A stretch of 55,277 nucleotides of DNA from Kiritimatiellia bacterium (GTDB taxonomy: Bacteria > Verrucomicrobiota > Kiritimatiellia > SLAD01): assembly GCA_007134735.1 (NCBI GenBank), contig SLKG01000060.1, positions 1-55,277 on the forward strand, read 5' to 3'. Of this stretch, positions 10,328 to 18,698 are shown piece by piece. The notes under the pieces were generated by a model. The model was given only the letters and a program-made list of their open reading frames with translations, ran no database searches and was not told where the DNA came from. Numbering within the stretch: position 1 is the stretch's first letter; every line of letters begins with the position of its first letter. Position numbers and translations under genes: made by a program.

Positions 10328-10936
10328 TCACTGCTTGCGGTACCGGATGAACCGTCTTACACCCAGCATCACGACACCCAGCGCGAACATCAGAATCGTT
10401 CCCGGTTCCGGAATAATCATCGCCGTGGTTTGGATATATCCCATATTGAACGTTTGGGCTGTGCCCGGCTGAGGAGTATCAAGATCTATAATTTGCGGAG
10501 ATATCCCCGATACGGCATAATATGTTCCCACCGGCACATCACCAATTTCTGCCAGTGCCTCAAAATCCGTAAGCGGCATGTCCAGCGCAATGAAATACGC
10601 GTAGAGACCGACCGCAAAATCATCCGGCTGCTCCTCAGTCATAAAACTTGTCGTATATCGCCCACCCAAACCGGATCCCATGGCCCGATAAAAGAAATCG
10701 TTCCCGTAGCTCTCCTGCAGAAAATCCAAGGGATCAAAGTTGATGGTCTGATCCGGCGTCAGGTATGTCAGGATGGTCGCACCTGAAGGGATATTGACTC
10801 CCTCGGAATCCTGAAAGTTATTTGCATCCGATGTCCAACGAAATGACGTGACGGTTTGTGCGTACGCGCCCGTTGCCGCCATTCCCAGAACACATATCGC
10901 CGCTAGAACTACAGACATCTTCTTAGTCATTATCAT
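10328..10936 (-). CDS. PEP-CTERM sorting domain secreted protein
   Basis: Signal peptide (VVLAAICVLGMAATGAYA) and C-terminal IIPEPGTILMFALGVVMLGVRRFIRYRKQ. Confidence 0.9.
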   Translation of the reverse strand: MIMTKKMSVVLAAICVLGMAATGAYAQTVTSFRWTSDANNFQDSEGVNIPSGATILTYLTPDQTINFDPLDFLQESYGNDFFYRAMGSGLGGRYTTSFMTEEQPDDFAVGLYAYFIALDMPLTDFEALAEIGDVPVGTYYAVSGISPQIIDLDTPQPGTAQTFNMGYIQTTAMIIPEPGTILMFALGVVMLGVRRFIRYRKQ

Positions 10937-13045: not shown

Positions 13046-16000
13046 TTACAGTCCGATGGCCAGATCGGAAACCGCATCTTCCTCTCCGCCGCGCGCGCGA
13101 TTGCGCTCCGCCTGGGTCTCCAGCGTGAAGGATACGCCGTCGGAATGAATCAGCACGGCGAGATCGCGGTCCGTACTCAGGCAGGCTTCCTCGCCCAGCC
13201 GGTCCGCGTAATAACGCCATGTAATTTCGTATAGATTGACCGCCGTGCGCCCGGCATCGCCCAGCACGGGGCGCGGGTTGCCGAACTCGAAGATGACGCG
13301 CTCCGGCTGCACCCGGTCAAGCAAAGGTTCCGTGTACTCTTCCAAGGCCCGGATTACACGAAACCGCGGCGGACGCTCTTCCCGGCCCGGCCATGCCGCT
13401 CCCTGATGCGGCACCACCAGGATATTCGCGCGCAAGGCTTCGGCATCCCATTGTTCCGCCAACAACCGCTGCCCTTCGTACGCCAGCGGTCCGGGAACCA
13501 GCAGGGCAAAATCGCCGTACACCACACGCAACACCAACGACCCGTTTTCGATGGGAAACGCCTGCGGAATTTCCGCCGGGGGTCCGAGCACTTCGATCCG
13601 GAACGGTTTACCCTCGTGTTCTTCTTCAAACAATACGGCGCCCGACTGTACGGCGCGCACGTGCGTGGCCCAGCCCGCCCACCGGTTGACCGGACTGTCG
13701 TCCCGCCGTTCCAGCGCCTTTGACAACGACGAACGCAGGGGCCATTCATGATGCCGAACCAGCTCGTTGTACATGGTTTCGAGCCGTTCCGGCTCATAGG
13801 CCGCAAGTTGCCGGGGCTCCGCCAGGCGCGCGGTGAATTCCTCAAAGGTCATATCCGAAGACAGATCCGCCAGCATCGGGGGAACATATACGCGGGGAGC
13901 GCGCGCGTGCTCCAAGACGTAGGCGGCGCCCGCCGCGCGTTCGGGCAGGGGCGACGTCAGGATCAAACCGTCAAGATGCCGCTGACGTGTATGCGAGAGG
14001 AACGGCAGAATCGTGCGCACGGCCTCGTTCCGCCGGCCGCGCTCGTGCTCGACGAATCCCGTATCAATGAGAATGCGTTGGCCGCCGGGCGACTCGACCA
14101 GGATGGCGCTCCCGTATCCCACCGACAACACGGTGACGTGCAAGCCGGGCGGTCGCGTATCGAGCGCCCGCGCCACCCAAACCGGCGTGCTGACGACCAG
14201 CGCCAGCGCGCCCAACACCAGCACGGGGGCCGCGCGGTTCCGCCACCCGAATTTCGCGCACGCATCGCACACACGACGCCACAAGGGCCGGTGCCACACA
14301 AAGGCGCCGATGAACAGGTAGTACACCACGATCTCCGTCACGCGGGGACGCCGCACAAACGGATACGGAAAGACCAGCGTACTGACATGCGCCAGCCAGA
14401 GAAAGATCGAGGTGAAGATCCAGTTGGCCGCATTGATTACCAGCGCGATGAAGGGGCCGATGAAGGGCAATAATCCCAACAGGCCCGCAATGGCGGCAAG
14501 CTGCAATACCACGCCGATCAACGGGATGGCCAGCAGGTTCGCGTACGCCCCGGCAAACGGCCACCGGTTGAAATAATAGGCCGACAGCGGAAGCATCATG
14601 CCGACCTGGATGGCAAACTGCGCAGCGACAAACGTGTTCACGGATTCGGGCATGTTCGCAAACGAGAACCCGCGGCTGATCCCCAGCCCCCGGGCCTCCA
14701 GCCGGCCCGCCGCATGAAACGCCACCAGGCACAACAGCGCCCATGGCAACAGAAACAACGGCGTCATGAGCAGGGCCCAATGACGAATGCCGATGAGGGT
14801 CGTCGCGATCACGATCAGAATGACCGCGGCAAAGCGGTTTCCGCGCAGGCGGCACAACTGTTCATGTACCGGCACGGTGATCAGGGCCAGCGAAAGGATC
14901 GCGCCGAACGATAGCGTGAACGAAGGATCCACCACCACAAGAGGATTGTGCAACAGGATCAGAAACGCCGCCACCGGCACGCCGATCAACACCGATGACC
15001 GCAGGCCCCGGTCCATGTAGGCCCACGTCAGCAGAAACAGGCTGTTCATAATCACCGCACGCAAGGTGGACGGACGCGCACCGGTAATGATGGCAAACAC
15101 GACCAGCGCAAAAATCACGCCCGGCACATACACCTGGCGCGGAAAACGCGCCATGGTGAAAATGGCCATGAACATGACCGTTAGAATGGTGACGTGCAGG
15201 CCCGAAACCGCCAGAACATGGTTCACGCCCGAAGACCGGAAATCGTCGACAATCTGCGCTTCGCTTTTCCCCAGTCCGACCCGGCGCGCCCAGGCGGGTT
15301 CCTCCCGGCCCTCCCACGGGTCCGACGCCATGTAGGGCGCGCCCTGCAAGCCGTACCGCAAACCAAGGGTAACCCCGCCCAGGAAGGCCGATTGCGGATA
15401 GGGCATGGTGGCCTTGAACAGACGCAATACCCGGTCGCGCAATCCGAGCGAAAAACCGACGAGCGGGTTGCCGGTCCGCACTTCGCCGTCTTCGGGCGCC
15501 ACGATATGAACAGGCGGCGGTTGGCCGCGCGGCTGGAAAGGACTCATGAGTCCGTAGATATTGTAGTTCTGCATGAACCGCCGCGCATTGAAGCCGCCCG
15601 GATTGGCCTCGGCACGCGCCACCGTGAGTTCGCCCCGGATCTGCACGTCCGCGCCATACGCCTCCGTACGGGCCAATGCGTCGTAGCCGTCCATGCCGGG
15701 GTGAATGGTGACCTGGATGTCGCCGCCCTCAACCCGATAGAACGGTCCCCCGGCTGGAAACTGGATGAACTGCGGCGTAACCGGCAACACGGTCTTGAAG
15801 TCGTACACGCGTGGATCGCCGGTGATCCGGCCCAGCACGGTAACCGGCGACTGCGCCCGGCGGGGACGCACAAACGTTCCGATATGATTCGAAATGCGGT
15901 GTACCGTGATAACGCCCTGTTCCGGGCCGTCCAGCCATTCGATGCCCGTGATCCGGGAAAAAGGCTGTTCCATCACATAATCGGTTCCAACGGGATCGTC

Positions 16001-16546
16001 CGCCTTCAGGGTAATCACCTCGCTGGTCAACGGCATACGGACCACGCGAAACATCCAGCGGCCTTCGGTATCCAGCCGGCACACATCCTGTTCGTTACGG
16101 ACCGGAACGCGCGCGTCGAGTTCGCCCCGAATACGGAGCCGGATGTCGCGGTCCAGTTCGGTATTCGTGGTCAAACGCAACCGGCTGATGTCCGGCAAGG
16201 GCGTGTGTTGATGGAACACGCGCGTCCCTCCATCGATCCGGATCTCCCCGAGCCGCATATCGGGCACGGTATCGGAACTGATATACCGGGTGTATCCCAG
16301 AAATACCGCGGAAAGACACAAGGCCCCGGCCAGCCAGAGGTTCAGGCCGGAAAACCCGGCGCGCTCCGCAACCCGGTCGCCGGACCACCAACCGCGCATC
16401 AACAGGATGGCCGCTACGGCCATGGCAACCCCGGTAACCGCCCTCAATCCAATCAGCCAGGACGGGTCGACGGGGAACAGCATCGCCAGGACCAAGCCGG
16501 CAATATACAGGTAACAGAAACCGATAAGCTTATTCTGGGAAATCAT
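13046..16546 (-). CDS. comEC: ComEC/Rec2-related DNA internalisation protein, with apparently degenerate metallo-beta-lactamase domain
   Basis: SGVNHVLAVSGLHVTILTVMFM competence-domain motif, many TMs, C-terminal MBL-like HVTVLSVGYGSAILVESPGGQRILIDTG; start MISQNKL at 16546. Confidence 0.85.
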   Translation of the reverse strand: MISQNKLIGFCYLYIAGLVLAMLFPVDPSWLIGLRAVTGVAMAVAAILLMRGWWSGDRVAERAGFSGLNLWLAGALCLSAVFLGYTRYISSDTVPDMRLGEIRIDGGTRVFHQHTPLPDISRLRLTTNTELDRDIRLRIRGELDARVPVRNEQDVCRLDTEGRWMFRVVRMPLTSEVITLKADDPVGTDYVMEQPFSRITGIEWLDGPEQGVITVHRISNHIGTFVRPRRAQSPVTVLGRITGDPRVYDFKTVLPVTPQFIQFPAGGPFYRVEGGDIQVTIHPGMDGYDALARTEAYGADVQIRGELTVARAEANPGGFNARRFMQNYNIYGLMSPFQPRGQPPPVHIVAPEDGEVRTGNPLVGFSLGLRDRVLRLFKATMPYPQSAFLGGVTLGLRYGLQGAPYMASDPWEGREEPAWARRVGLGKSEAQIVDDFRSSGVNHVLAVSGLHVTILTVMFMAIFTMARFPRQVYVPGVIFALVVFAIITGARPSTLRAVIMNSLFLLTWAYMDRGLRSSVLIGVPVAAFLILLHNPLVVVDPSFTLSFGAILSLALITVPVHEQLCRLRGNRFAAVILIVIATTLIGIRHWALLMTPLFLLPWALLCLVAFHAAGRLEARGLGISRGFSFANMPESVNTFVAAQFAIQVGMMLPLSAYYFNRWPFAGAYANLLAIPLIGVVLQLAAIAGLLGLLPFIGPFIALVINAANWIFTSIFLWLAHVSTLVFPYPFVRRPRVTEIVVYYLFIGAFVWHRPLWRRVCDACAKFGWRNRAAPVLVLGALALVVSTPVWVARALDTRPPGLHVTVLSVGYGSAILVESPGGQRILIDTGFVEHERGRRNEAVRTILPFLSHTRQRHLDGLILTSPLPERAAGAAYVLEHARAPRVYVPPMLADLSSDMTFEEFTARLAEPRQLAAYEPERLETMYNELVRHHEWPLRSSLSKALERRDDSPVNRWAGWATHVRAVQSGAVLFEEEHEGKPFRIEVLGPPAEIPQAFPIENGSLVLRVVYGDFALLVPGPLAYEGQRLLAEQWDAEALRANILVVPHQGAAWPGREERPPRFRVIRALEEYTEPLLDRVQPERVIFEFGNPRPVLGDAGRTAVNLYEITWRYYADRLGEEACLSTDRDLAVLIHSDGVSFTLETQAERNRARGGEEDAVSDLAIGL

Positions 16547-16739
16547 GGTCCATCCCGCCTTCGTAGGTAACCTCGGGATAATAATCGATATTTGATTGCC
16601 AGAGCGGGGCTTGCTCAACCTCGCCCCGCATCATGGCCTGCGCCGTCTTGCGATAATCGGGATGAAACACCACGATCAGCAGTCCGAGCAGCATGGCGCC
16701 CGCCAGGATATACGCCAGCGCCTTGGATCCTCTCTCCAT
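16530..16739 (-). CDS. Small single-TM membrane protein
   Basis: MERGSKALAYILAGAMLLGLLIVVFHPDYRKTAQAMMRGEV...; its 3' end overlaps the comEC start by 17 nt. Confidence 0.6.
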   Translation of the reverse strand: MERGSKALAYILAGAMLLGLLIVVFHPDYRKTAQAMMRGEVEQAPLWQSNIDYYPEVTYEGGMDHDFPE

Positions 16740-16740
16740 C

Positions 16741-16968
16741 TCATTTATCCTTTCCCTGATCCTCGTCCAACCCGGATTTTCCACTCCGCAAGAGGACAAA
16801 GAACACAAAGAAAAAAGGCAGGCAAGGCAGAAGATACAACACACCTTCCTGCGTGTAAAAAATGCGTTGTTGACCGAATATCAACCACAGAAGATACCCC
16901 AACAATCCGGCTGTGTTCAACCAAAGAACCGCCAGGTGGAGACGGCGGTATGGATGGAGCGGGTTCAT
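16741..16968 (-). CDS. Small two-TM membrane protein
   Basis: MNPLHPYRRLHLAVLWLNTAGLLGYLLWLIF...GVLYLLPCLPFFFVFFVLLRSGKSG; 4-nt overlap with the upstream NERD gene. Confidence 0.6.
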   Translation of the reverse strand: MNPLHPYRRLHLAVLWLNTAGLLGYLLWLIFGQQRIFYTQEGVLYLLPCLPFFFVFFVLLRSGKSGLDEDQGKDK

Positions 16969-17720
16969 CCCTCCCCCACGAACAGGTTCAATGCCTTCGA
17001 TATCTCCTCTTCGCTGTAGGTCCGTTCCGTCTCCTTGTTCGCGATATACGCGACGGCGTCGTGAGGCTTCATCACCGGGATCGCATCCGTGTTCACGGTG
17101 AACGTGGTATACGGAGAGGTAAACACCAATATCCCGTACAGATCCGGCCAGTCGAGCCCTCCACGCCGCAACGCCCCGGACAGGAACTCGATATGCCGCC
17201 GCACCTGACGCAACGGATTGGATACACGAACGGGGTGATCGCCCGGTTTCCGGGTCTGGGTCCACCGGTCATCCTGCTCGCCGCCCTCGAGATGCCCGCG
17301 CCAGTTCTTGGTTTCGATCACACACAGCCCCCGGGGCGAAACCACCAGGTGATCGATCTGGGCCGACTGGCGCCCCATCCTCACCGTGATGTCGTTCAAT
17401 ACATAATGGGTATTATCCAGTTTTTCCGCGAGGGCCCGGGTCACCTGTGTCTCCCCGCGCAACCCGGCTTGAACCCGTTTTTCCTCCAGGCGGTTCTGGC
17501 GGATCTTCATGAAATGCCCCGCGAAGAAAATAGTAGCGGCCGCGCCCAGCCAGAAGACGCCGGCCTGCCCCCTCCAGAAATACAGCACGACGCCGGAAAC
17601 CAACAGGAATACCGCCAAAACGGCTTCAATACGAACAAGGCGGCTCAAGGTGTCCGTCTCCTTGAGCAACGCTTTTTGCTTGAGCGTCAGGGTGGATTCA
17701 TCGGTCAGTACACGCGCCAT
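16965..17720 (-). CDS. Membrane protein with NERD (nuclease-related) domain
   Basis: Two N-terminal TMs, then RGETQVTRALAEKLDNTHYVLNDITVRMGRQSAQIDHLVVSPRGLCVIETKNWRGHLEGG. Confidence 0.87.
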   Translation of the reverse strand: MARVLTDESTLTLKQKALLKETDTLSRLVRIEAVLAVFLLVSGVVLYFWRGQAGVFWLGAAATIFFAGHFMKIRQNRLEEKRVQAGLRGETQVTRALAEKLDNTHYVLNDITVRMGRQSAQIDHLVVSPRGLCVIETKNWRGHLEGGEQDDRWTQTRKPGDHPVRVSNPLRQVRRHIEFLSGALRRGGLDWPDLYGILVFTSPYTTFTVNTDAIPVMKPHDAVAYIANKETERTYSEEEISKALNLFVGEG

Positions 17721-17753
17721 GAGTATCCTGTCTTCCGACTGTGAAACCTGTTG

Positions 17754-18698
17754 TCAGTCCTGCTCCAACCGTTCCAACACCTCGGCGTTGGCCGAACGCG
17801 CACGCGTATCGATGACCCGGATCCGCACACGATCACCGGGCTGTGTATCCGGCACAAAAACGACAAACCCGTCGATACGCGCCACGCCGTCCACTTCCGG
17901 ATTCCGGCGATCCGGCTCCGTGACCGTCACCTCGTGCTCCTCGCCGATCGTAACCGGTGTTTCGCGCACGGGCCGCGGCGCCTCTTCCGGCGCAACAGGC
18001 GCGTCGAAAGGCTCGTCCGATTTCGATACCACCTCCGCACGGGCGAAGCGTTCAAGATCGTCGACAATGACGAATTCCACGTGCTCGCCCAGTTCGGCGC
18101 CCTCCACAAATACCACCTTGCCCTCTACCCGCACGATGCCGTCGCCGTCACGCCCCATATCCGTCACGGTCCCGCGATAGACCCGGCCCAATTCGGTTAC
18201 CGATGGTTCCCGCGTTCGTTCAGGACGATCGGGCCGCCGGGGACGACGATCCGGAACCGGTACGCCGCTTTCCAGCCGCTCAATCAATACGGCATCGGCC
18301 GTGGAGCGCCTCAGACGGCTCACCTCGGCAATCACCACATCGCCCCGTTGCGTGTCCGGCACAAAGGTCACCAGGCCCCCGATCCGGGCGATGCCCGACG
18401 CGCCTTCCCGCGCCTCGTCCTCAATCAACACCTTGTACCGGTATCCCTCCCGGGCTTGAACATCCGGGTCGTCCACGGCATCGATCACCTGCCATATGTT
18501 CACATCAACTTCCCGTGGAGCGGGGGCTTCAATCAACTCGATGATTCTTTCCTGATGCGTGTCGCCGGGGCGCAACGCCAGGTACGCCACCACACCGACA
18601 GCCGCCAGGCAGATTACCAACAGGAGCAACAAAGTGTTGCGGGACAGAAAATCGGATTTCGGGGGCGTTGATTCGGGTTGGGGCTGGTCATTCATCAT
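17754..18698 (-). CDS. Membrane-anchored protein with three TRAM domains
   Basis: One N-terminal TM; three TRAM-like units: GIARIGGLVTFVPDTQRGDVV..., GIVRVEGKVVFVEGAELGEHV..., GVARIDGFVVFVPDTQPGDRV... Confidence 0.75.
   Translation of the reverse strand: MMNDQPQPESTPPKSDFLSRNTLLLLLVICLAAVGVVAYLALRPGDTHQERIIELIEAPAPREVDVNIWQVIDAVDDPDVQAREGYRYKVLIEDEAREGASGIARIGGLVTFVPDTQRGDVVIAEVSRLRRSTADAVLIERLESGVPVPDRRPRRPDRPERTREPSVTELGRVYRGTVTDMGRDGDGIVRVEGKVVFVEGAELGEHVEFVIVDDLERFARAEVVSKSDEPFDAPVAPEEAPRPVRETPVTIGEEHEVTVTEPDRRNPEVDGVARIDGFVVFVPDTQPGDRVRIRVIDTRARSANAEVLERLEQD

Follow-up and report, generated by a model that had tools for sequence, protein, structure and literature searches.

ComEC-type proteins are present in nearly all bacteria, usually as one per genome (PMC6299819); they include ComEC/Rec2, the DNA-translocation channel of natural transformation. 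We analyzed a stretch of 55,277 nucleotides (nt) from a Kiritimatiellia bacterium (contig SLKG01000060.1 of assembly GCA_007134735.1, positions 1 to 55,277; hereafter the window), in which a ComEC-like gene closes a five-gene block on the minus strand at 13046-18698, in the order TRAM, NERD, mini1, mini2, ComEC-like (hereafter the module). In ComEC of Moorella, the metal ligands of motif II in the nuclease domain (H598, D600, D602 and H603, in the numbering of PMC12455585) are needed for nuclease activity (PMC12455585). In ComEC of Legionella, an aromatic pin carried on loop 2 is essential. In Streptococcus pneumoniae, the nuclease domain of ComEC is substituted and a separate membrane-tethered nuclease, EndA, acts outside the membrane (PMC8579336); what becomes of the second strand in the absence of the ComEC nuclease is a stated open question (PMC8579336). 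Archaeal single-TRAM proteins work as RNA chaperones, and those that were studied bound RNA without sequence preference and did not bind DNA (PMC5572242). The function of the NERD domain was without experimental study before 2022, according to the report on SmdA, a membrane NERD protein that acts in cell division (PMC9040797).

We found that the five genes almost certainly form one functional unit, and that the best overall reading of that unit is a nucleic-acid translocation module in the inner membrane with a ComEC paralogue at its core, a reading to which we give about even credence. The genes are the following.

17754-18698, minus strand: triple-TRAM protein of 314 amino acids (PF01938 in three stretches, NF053605 above its cut-off, orthologue alignment, transmembrane prediction)
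16965-17720, minus strand: NERD protein of 251 amino acids (PF08378, invariant columns, AlphaFold model, weak Foldseek matches)
16741-16968, minus strand: mini1, 75 amino acids (two transmembrane segments; 17 orthologues)
16530-16739, minus strand: mini2, 69 amino acids (single transmembrane segment; 16 orthologues; hhalign match to the tail of a ComEC partner)
13046-16546, minus strand: ComEC-family channel paralogue of 1166 amino acids (Pfam domains, AlphaFold model, Foldseek, motif alignments)

A preliminary description had read this block as a membrane-bound module for DNA uptake and processing. Its five open reading frames, their coordinates, strand and order, and the overlaps of 4 nt between NERD and mini1 (16965-16968, where the mini1 start lies over the NERD stop) and 17 nt between mini2 and ComEC (16530-16546) were all confirmed when we checked the reading frames; the remaining gaps are 33 nt between TRAM and NERD and 1 nt between mini1 and mini2. 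The assignments that it made to three TRAM domains, NERD and ComEC were borne out by Pfam (PF01938, PF08378, PF03772 and DUF4131), as were the transmembrane segments that it predicted in every product: hydropathy gives a hairpin in NERD, two segments in mini1 and a single one each in TRAM and mini2, and the AlphaFold model of the module ComEC contains many helices. Pfam has no family for mini1 or mini2; both are nevertheless real genes, because each has 16-17 orthologues with strictly conserved residues. Scans for promoters and terminators found no excess of promoter-like sites, and no repeats were seen upstream of the block.

To place the module among its relatives, we used a set of 58 related genomes, and a set of 388 genomes of the phylum for profile searches. 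The order TRAM-NERD-mini1-mini2-ComEC is retained, with its overlaps, in families f1, f5, f8, f10, f12 and f21 of the class, and the same order is found in most of the loci first fetched and in three further genomes (L201, L202, L210). The 4-nt overlap between the NERD stop and the mini1 start is present in most genomes; some large mini2-ComEC overlaps in relatives are an artefact of an over-long start call for ComEC. When we compared all loci against each other, no gene family besides the five module genes was broadly common to them, and the flanks differ. Recurrence of this order across many genomes, with the module genes alone widely common to the loci, shows that the five-gene set is not a chance association; the loss of the neighbourhood in close relatives, which the preliminary description had named as the outcome that would count against it, did not occur. 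The module type of ComEC is present in 21 of the 58 relatives. The module NERD is found in 17 of these 21 and in 0 of the 37 that lack this ComEC, and the TRAM protein is found in 18 of the 21 and in one other genome; genomes without a module part, including the four NERD exceptions, are fragmentary at that place or are incomplete assemblies. In the phylum set, the mini2 profile gave 26 strong matches, all within the same class, the module-NERD profile gave 26 matches at E<=1e-40, and the two sets of positive genomes are identical (26/388 each). Beyond the phylum, the search consisted of a single pattern scan based on the TRAM protein, and the sole full-length match lay again in a Kiritimatiellae genome. 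Eight of these 26 genomes belong to family f26, where TRAM-NERD-NERD is unlinked from mini1-...-mini2-ComEC, and all eight keep both halves of this split module; in one further genome (G265) NERD has been relocated to another contig and is still retained. This retention of both halves after splitting or relocation is the strongest support for a joint function.

Some loci depart from the common arrangement. In the G032 locus (L140, G032:C9) parts are duplicated, giving NERD-TRAM-NERD-mini1-mini2-ComEC-TRAM, again with module parts only. In G054 and three other genomes of f26, the mini1-mini2-ComEC locus contains a gene that by eye resembles a cation-diffusion facilitator (G054/L145 4349-5227, L204, L205, L208), and in G054 (L145) it sits between mini1 and mini2. 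A module-type TRAM protein, perhaps a relic, lies at 6084-7013 of L141 (G034:C5) without NERD, the mini genes or the module ComEC.

The host genome has three ComEC-family genes, and we found that the module ComEC is a divergent paralogue among them; the two further paralogues go beyond the preliminary description, and the module ComEC is neither the sole nor the most canonical copy. Membership in the ComEC family is clear from the Competence domain (PF03772, E 4.7e-34), and the OB domain is recognized both by DUF4131 (E 3.4e-8, 33.8 bits against a cut-off of 31.6) and by an OB-fold match to the solved chain 9iew (E 6e-6). N-terminal transmembrane segments are followed by an extra beta domain (~97-217), DUF4131/OB (~216-339), the Competence transmembrane domain (430-752) and a C-terminal metallo-beta-lactamase fold (~800-1150). 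The module ComEC thus resembles the ComEC/Rec2 channel (solved chains 30bt and 9ic4) in domain order, the SGLH and PSxxRA signatures, the OB-fold match and the metallo-beta-lactamase fold, and the channel signatures SGLH and G-x-(R/K)PSxxRA are kept in 28/28 module ComECs. The AlphaFold model has a mean pLDDT of 72, with the beta domains and the C-terminal domain at ~80-90 and the channel low, and the C-terminal domain matches the nuclease domain of Moorella ComEC (9ic4) with a Foldseek E of 5.5e-16 and a TMt of 0.81. In contrast to ComEC/Rec2, the module ComEC falls below the TIGR00361 equivalog cut-off (108.7 bits against 190.05), carries the extra N-terminal beta domain, has lost its metal ligands, and comes together with mini2 and NERD, and also with TRAM wherever the assembly permits the test. 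In the window protein, TSPLPER at 864-870 replaces the His/Asp motif II. The first His is lost from every module ComEC (28/28; Ser in 26), Asp602 is replaced by Glu in 28/28, the last His is replaced by Arg in 20, and a complete set of metal ligands is found in 0/28. A pin loop of the NRFxFP type was not found in the module ComECs; the equivalent seems to be FGNPRPVLG, in a part of the alignment that is less certain. Class-wide, canonical ComECs are mostly without an intact nuclease motif, and ComEA-like matches are patchy.

The two small proteins are candidate subunits of the channel. The mini1 core in the window family reads FYTQEGVLYLLPxLPFFFV, and mini2 consists of its single transmembrane segment and a conserved P-x-YR ... 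SPIWxSNxxYYP tail. In every examined locus that contains both, mini2 lies directly upstream of the module ComEC. At 436-5114 of L222 (G000:C104), the third ComEC paralogue, of 933 amino acids and without the metal-ligand motif, lies directly behind a gene that overlaps it by 4 nt and encodes a 626-amino-acid protein without a Pfam match, and we found that the mini2 profile is homologous to the C-terminal transmembrane tail of this protein (hhalign 98.3%, E 1.6e-14). Pairs of this type, with the 626-amino-acid protein encoded ahead of ComEC, are found beyond the class as well, elsewhere in the phylum (L212, L215). The transmembrane-plus-SN..(YF)(YF)P tail therefore accompanies two ComEC paralogues, in one case as a separate protein (mini2) and in the other fused to a larger one. 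Because two different ComEC paralogues have a partner with the same tail, mini2 is very probably a ComEC-partner domain and would be a subunit of the channel. The preliminary description had missed this role, as it had the loss of the ComEC nuclease centre and the predicted cytoplasmic position of NERD.

The NERD protein matches PF08378 (E 1.1e-25) and has the acidic and ExK residues of the family. In 18 aligned NERD sequences, from which the one G054 copy lacking ExK was left out, E90, D123-H124 and E136-x-K138 are invariant; the protein is a predicted PD-(D/E)xK-like nuclease whose site is kept. A sequence search gave no solved structure of a NERD relative. The AlphaFold model has a pLDDT of 91.2, and its Foldseek matches are weak (best E 0.013), the best being mostly nucleases or nuclease-bearing proteins (Can2, Bax1, R2). 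In the N-terminal transmembrane hairpin, positive charges flank the helices at their outer ends and are nearly absent from the loop, a positive-inside pattern that places the NERD domain, by prediction, in the cytoplasm. The module NERD thus resembles SmdA-type proteins, with an N-terminal transmembrane segment and a cytoplasmic NERD domain; in contrast, SmdA is monocistronic and is without several conserved NERD residues (PMC9040797). Tandem NERD pairs occur in f26 (L144 8798-10446; L225-L231). In f26 G054, ExK is gone from one of the two copies while ESK remains in the other, which suggests a pseudo-enzyme/enzyme pair; by a motif scan, most other f26 loci have a single intact NERD copy.

The TRAM protein has three TRAM domains (PF01938, E 2.4e-29, 101.4 bits, above the cut-off), joined by Pro/Arg-rich linkers behind one N-terminal transmembrane segment (residues ~23-41), and the number of TRAM domains varies among aligned orthologues. 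With 135.2 bits against a cut-off of 85 it scores above the equivalog threshold of NF053605 (PyTRAM), the model of the archaeal RNA chaperones (such as TRAM0076 and TRAM3066). In contrast to those small, soluble, single-domain proteins, it has 314 residues, repeated domains and a membrane anchor, and it is encoded in a bacterial gene cluster.

Taken together, these data suggest how the module may work. Judging from the protein families, its substrate is probably nucleic acid. The TRAM array would form OB-like beads on one transmembrane segment that capture and open RNA or single-stranded DNA beside the channel; the ComEC paralogue, with mini1 and mini2 as its small subunits, would conduct one strand inward; and the NERD domain, tethered at the cytoplasmic face, would cut the strand as it emerges. 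We consider inward transport an even call, and cleavage of the transported strand by NERD slightly less likely than that. The outcome would be nutrient scavenging or disposal and not inheritable transformation. What stood of the preliminary description is the conserved unit, best read as a ComEC channel that is joined by a nucleic-acid-binding fold and by a predicted nuclease; its DNA substrate found no support, nor did a link to transformation. Because the archaeal TRAM proteins that were studied bound RNA but did not bind DNA (PMC5572242), RNA is as likely a substrate as DNA, and we put the two about level. Several observations weigh against this picture. Shared descent accounts in part for the identical NERD and mini2 genome sets. 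The charge balance leaves the orientation of mini2 ambiguous, and that of the TRAM protein too, where it slightly and weakly favours TRAM domains on the outside. Foldseek support for a nuclease fold in NERD is weak, and nuclease activity of a bacterial NERD domain was undemonstrated as of PMC9040797. The host's other ComEC paralogues and most canonical ComECs of relatives, including relatives without the module, also lack an intact motif; since the motif has gone missing irrespective of the module, NERD does not have to stand in for the lost ComEC centre. We had considered NERD as a simple replacement for that centre, and that idea is weakened by this and by the predicted cytoplasmic position of NERD.

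The module could instead be a classical DNA-uptake channel for transformation with distributed parts, in which TRAM takes the place of ComEA as the periplasmic DNA receptor and NERD that of the dead ComEC nuclease. S. pneumoniae offers a precedent, since EndA there serves a ComEC with substituted metal ligands (PMC8579336); the non-transforming strand is degraded outside, however, whereas NERD is predicted to be cytoplasmic. PilT is found in 58/58 and DprA in 53/58 relatives, but neither separates carriers of the module from non-carriers. ComEA-like matches are rarer in module genomes (6/21 vs 22/37, Fisher p 0.03, uncorrected for kinship); both kinship and other helix-hairpin-helix proteins confound this contrast, so TRAM as a ComEA replacement is only a lead. 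The host genome has a ComEA-like open reading frame but no DprA match in its incomplete assembly, and its ComEA-like, PilT and ComF matches sit on contigs other than that of the module. No linkage to comEA, comF, dprA or pilus genes was found, only the five module genes being broadly common to the loci, and the ComF model was uninformative, with no genome above its cut-off. Dead ComEC nucleases in module-free relatives, three ComEC paralogues in one genome, the RNA preference of archaeal TRAM proteins and the missing NRFxFP-type pin loop also speak against transformation. Because PilT and DprA are uninformative and ComEA-like matches are rarer in carriers, a role in transformation is possible but not favoured over scavenging, and we regard it as rather unlikely. 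Dedicated import of RNA, in which periplasmic RNA-specific TRAM beads unfold extracellular RNA and feed it to ComEC, with NERD at the cytoplasmic exit for nucleotide salvage, would not need a strand-degrading nuclease in the channel because the substrate is already single-stranded; we consider this version unlikely.

Transport in the opposite direction, with cytoplasmic TRAM beads collecting RNA or DNA, NERD trimming it and ComEC exporting it, or a membrane-bound surveillance of nucleic acids as defence, would suit TRAM as a typically intracellular RNA-binding domain, the ambiguous topology of the TRAM protein and the occurrence of NERD in defence proteins. PADLOC, however, gave only weak matches to the NERD part (PglW and NERD+UvrD) and no defence-system model that fits the set, so a defence system was rejected; the module is widely kept within families without common flanks, and known ComEC transport is inward. 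An exporter or envelope device of this kind is improbable. We give slightly less credence still to recruitment of the ComEC paralogue for a task without nucleic acid, for instance in division or in envelope assembly, where NERD and TRAM would be structural parts. The role of SmdA in S. aureus morphology (PMC9040797), the dead ComEC nuclease centre and the loss of ExK from one of two NERD copies in f26 G054 are consistent with it, but the channel signatures are invariant (28/28), ExK is invariant in the 18 aligned NERD copies, and TRAM domains are retained as repeats.

The translocation module that we favour resembles S. pneumoniae ComEC and EndA in combining a substituted ComEC nuclease domain with a separate membrane-tethered nuclease candidate, and differs from it in the predicted cytoplasmic side of that candidate. 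In the open-access literature we found no paper that joins ComEC with NERD or TRAM, in keeping with the statement in the preliminary description that the set matches no described competence operon. The ComEC family itself had been described before; what seems to be new is the module of five parts, along with its restriction to the class and the partner domain. In this lineage a specialised ComEC paralogue has lost its nuclease centre and travels with two partner proteins, a predicted separate nuclease and a nucleic-acid-binding array. From it come specific candidates for the subunits of a ComEC complex, foremost mini2, and it can be used to ask whether ComEC channels carry anything other than transforming DNA.

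In the window, an aldo/keto reductase gene lies 226 nt upstream of the block, and a convergent methyltransferase gene lies downstream of it. Just downstream of the five-gene region, at 10328-10936, the window also encodes a PEP-CTERM protein (PF07589).

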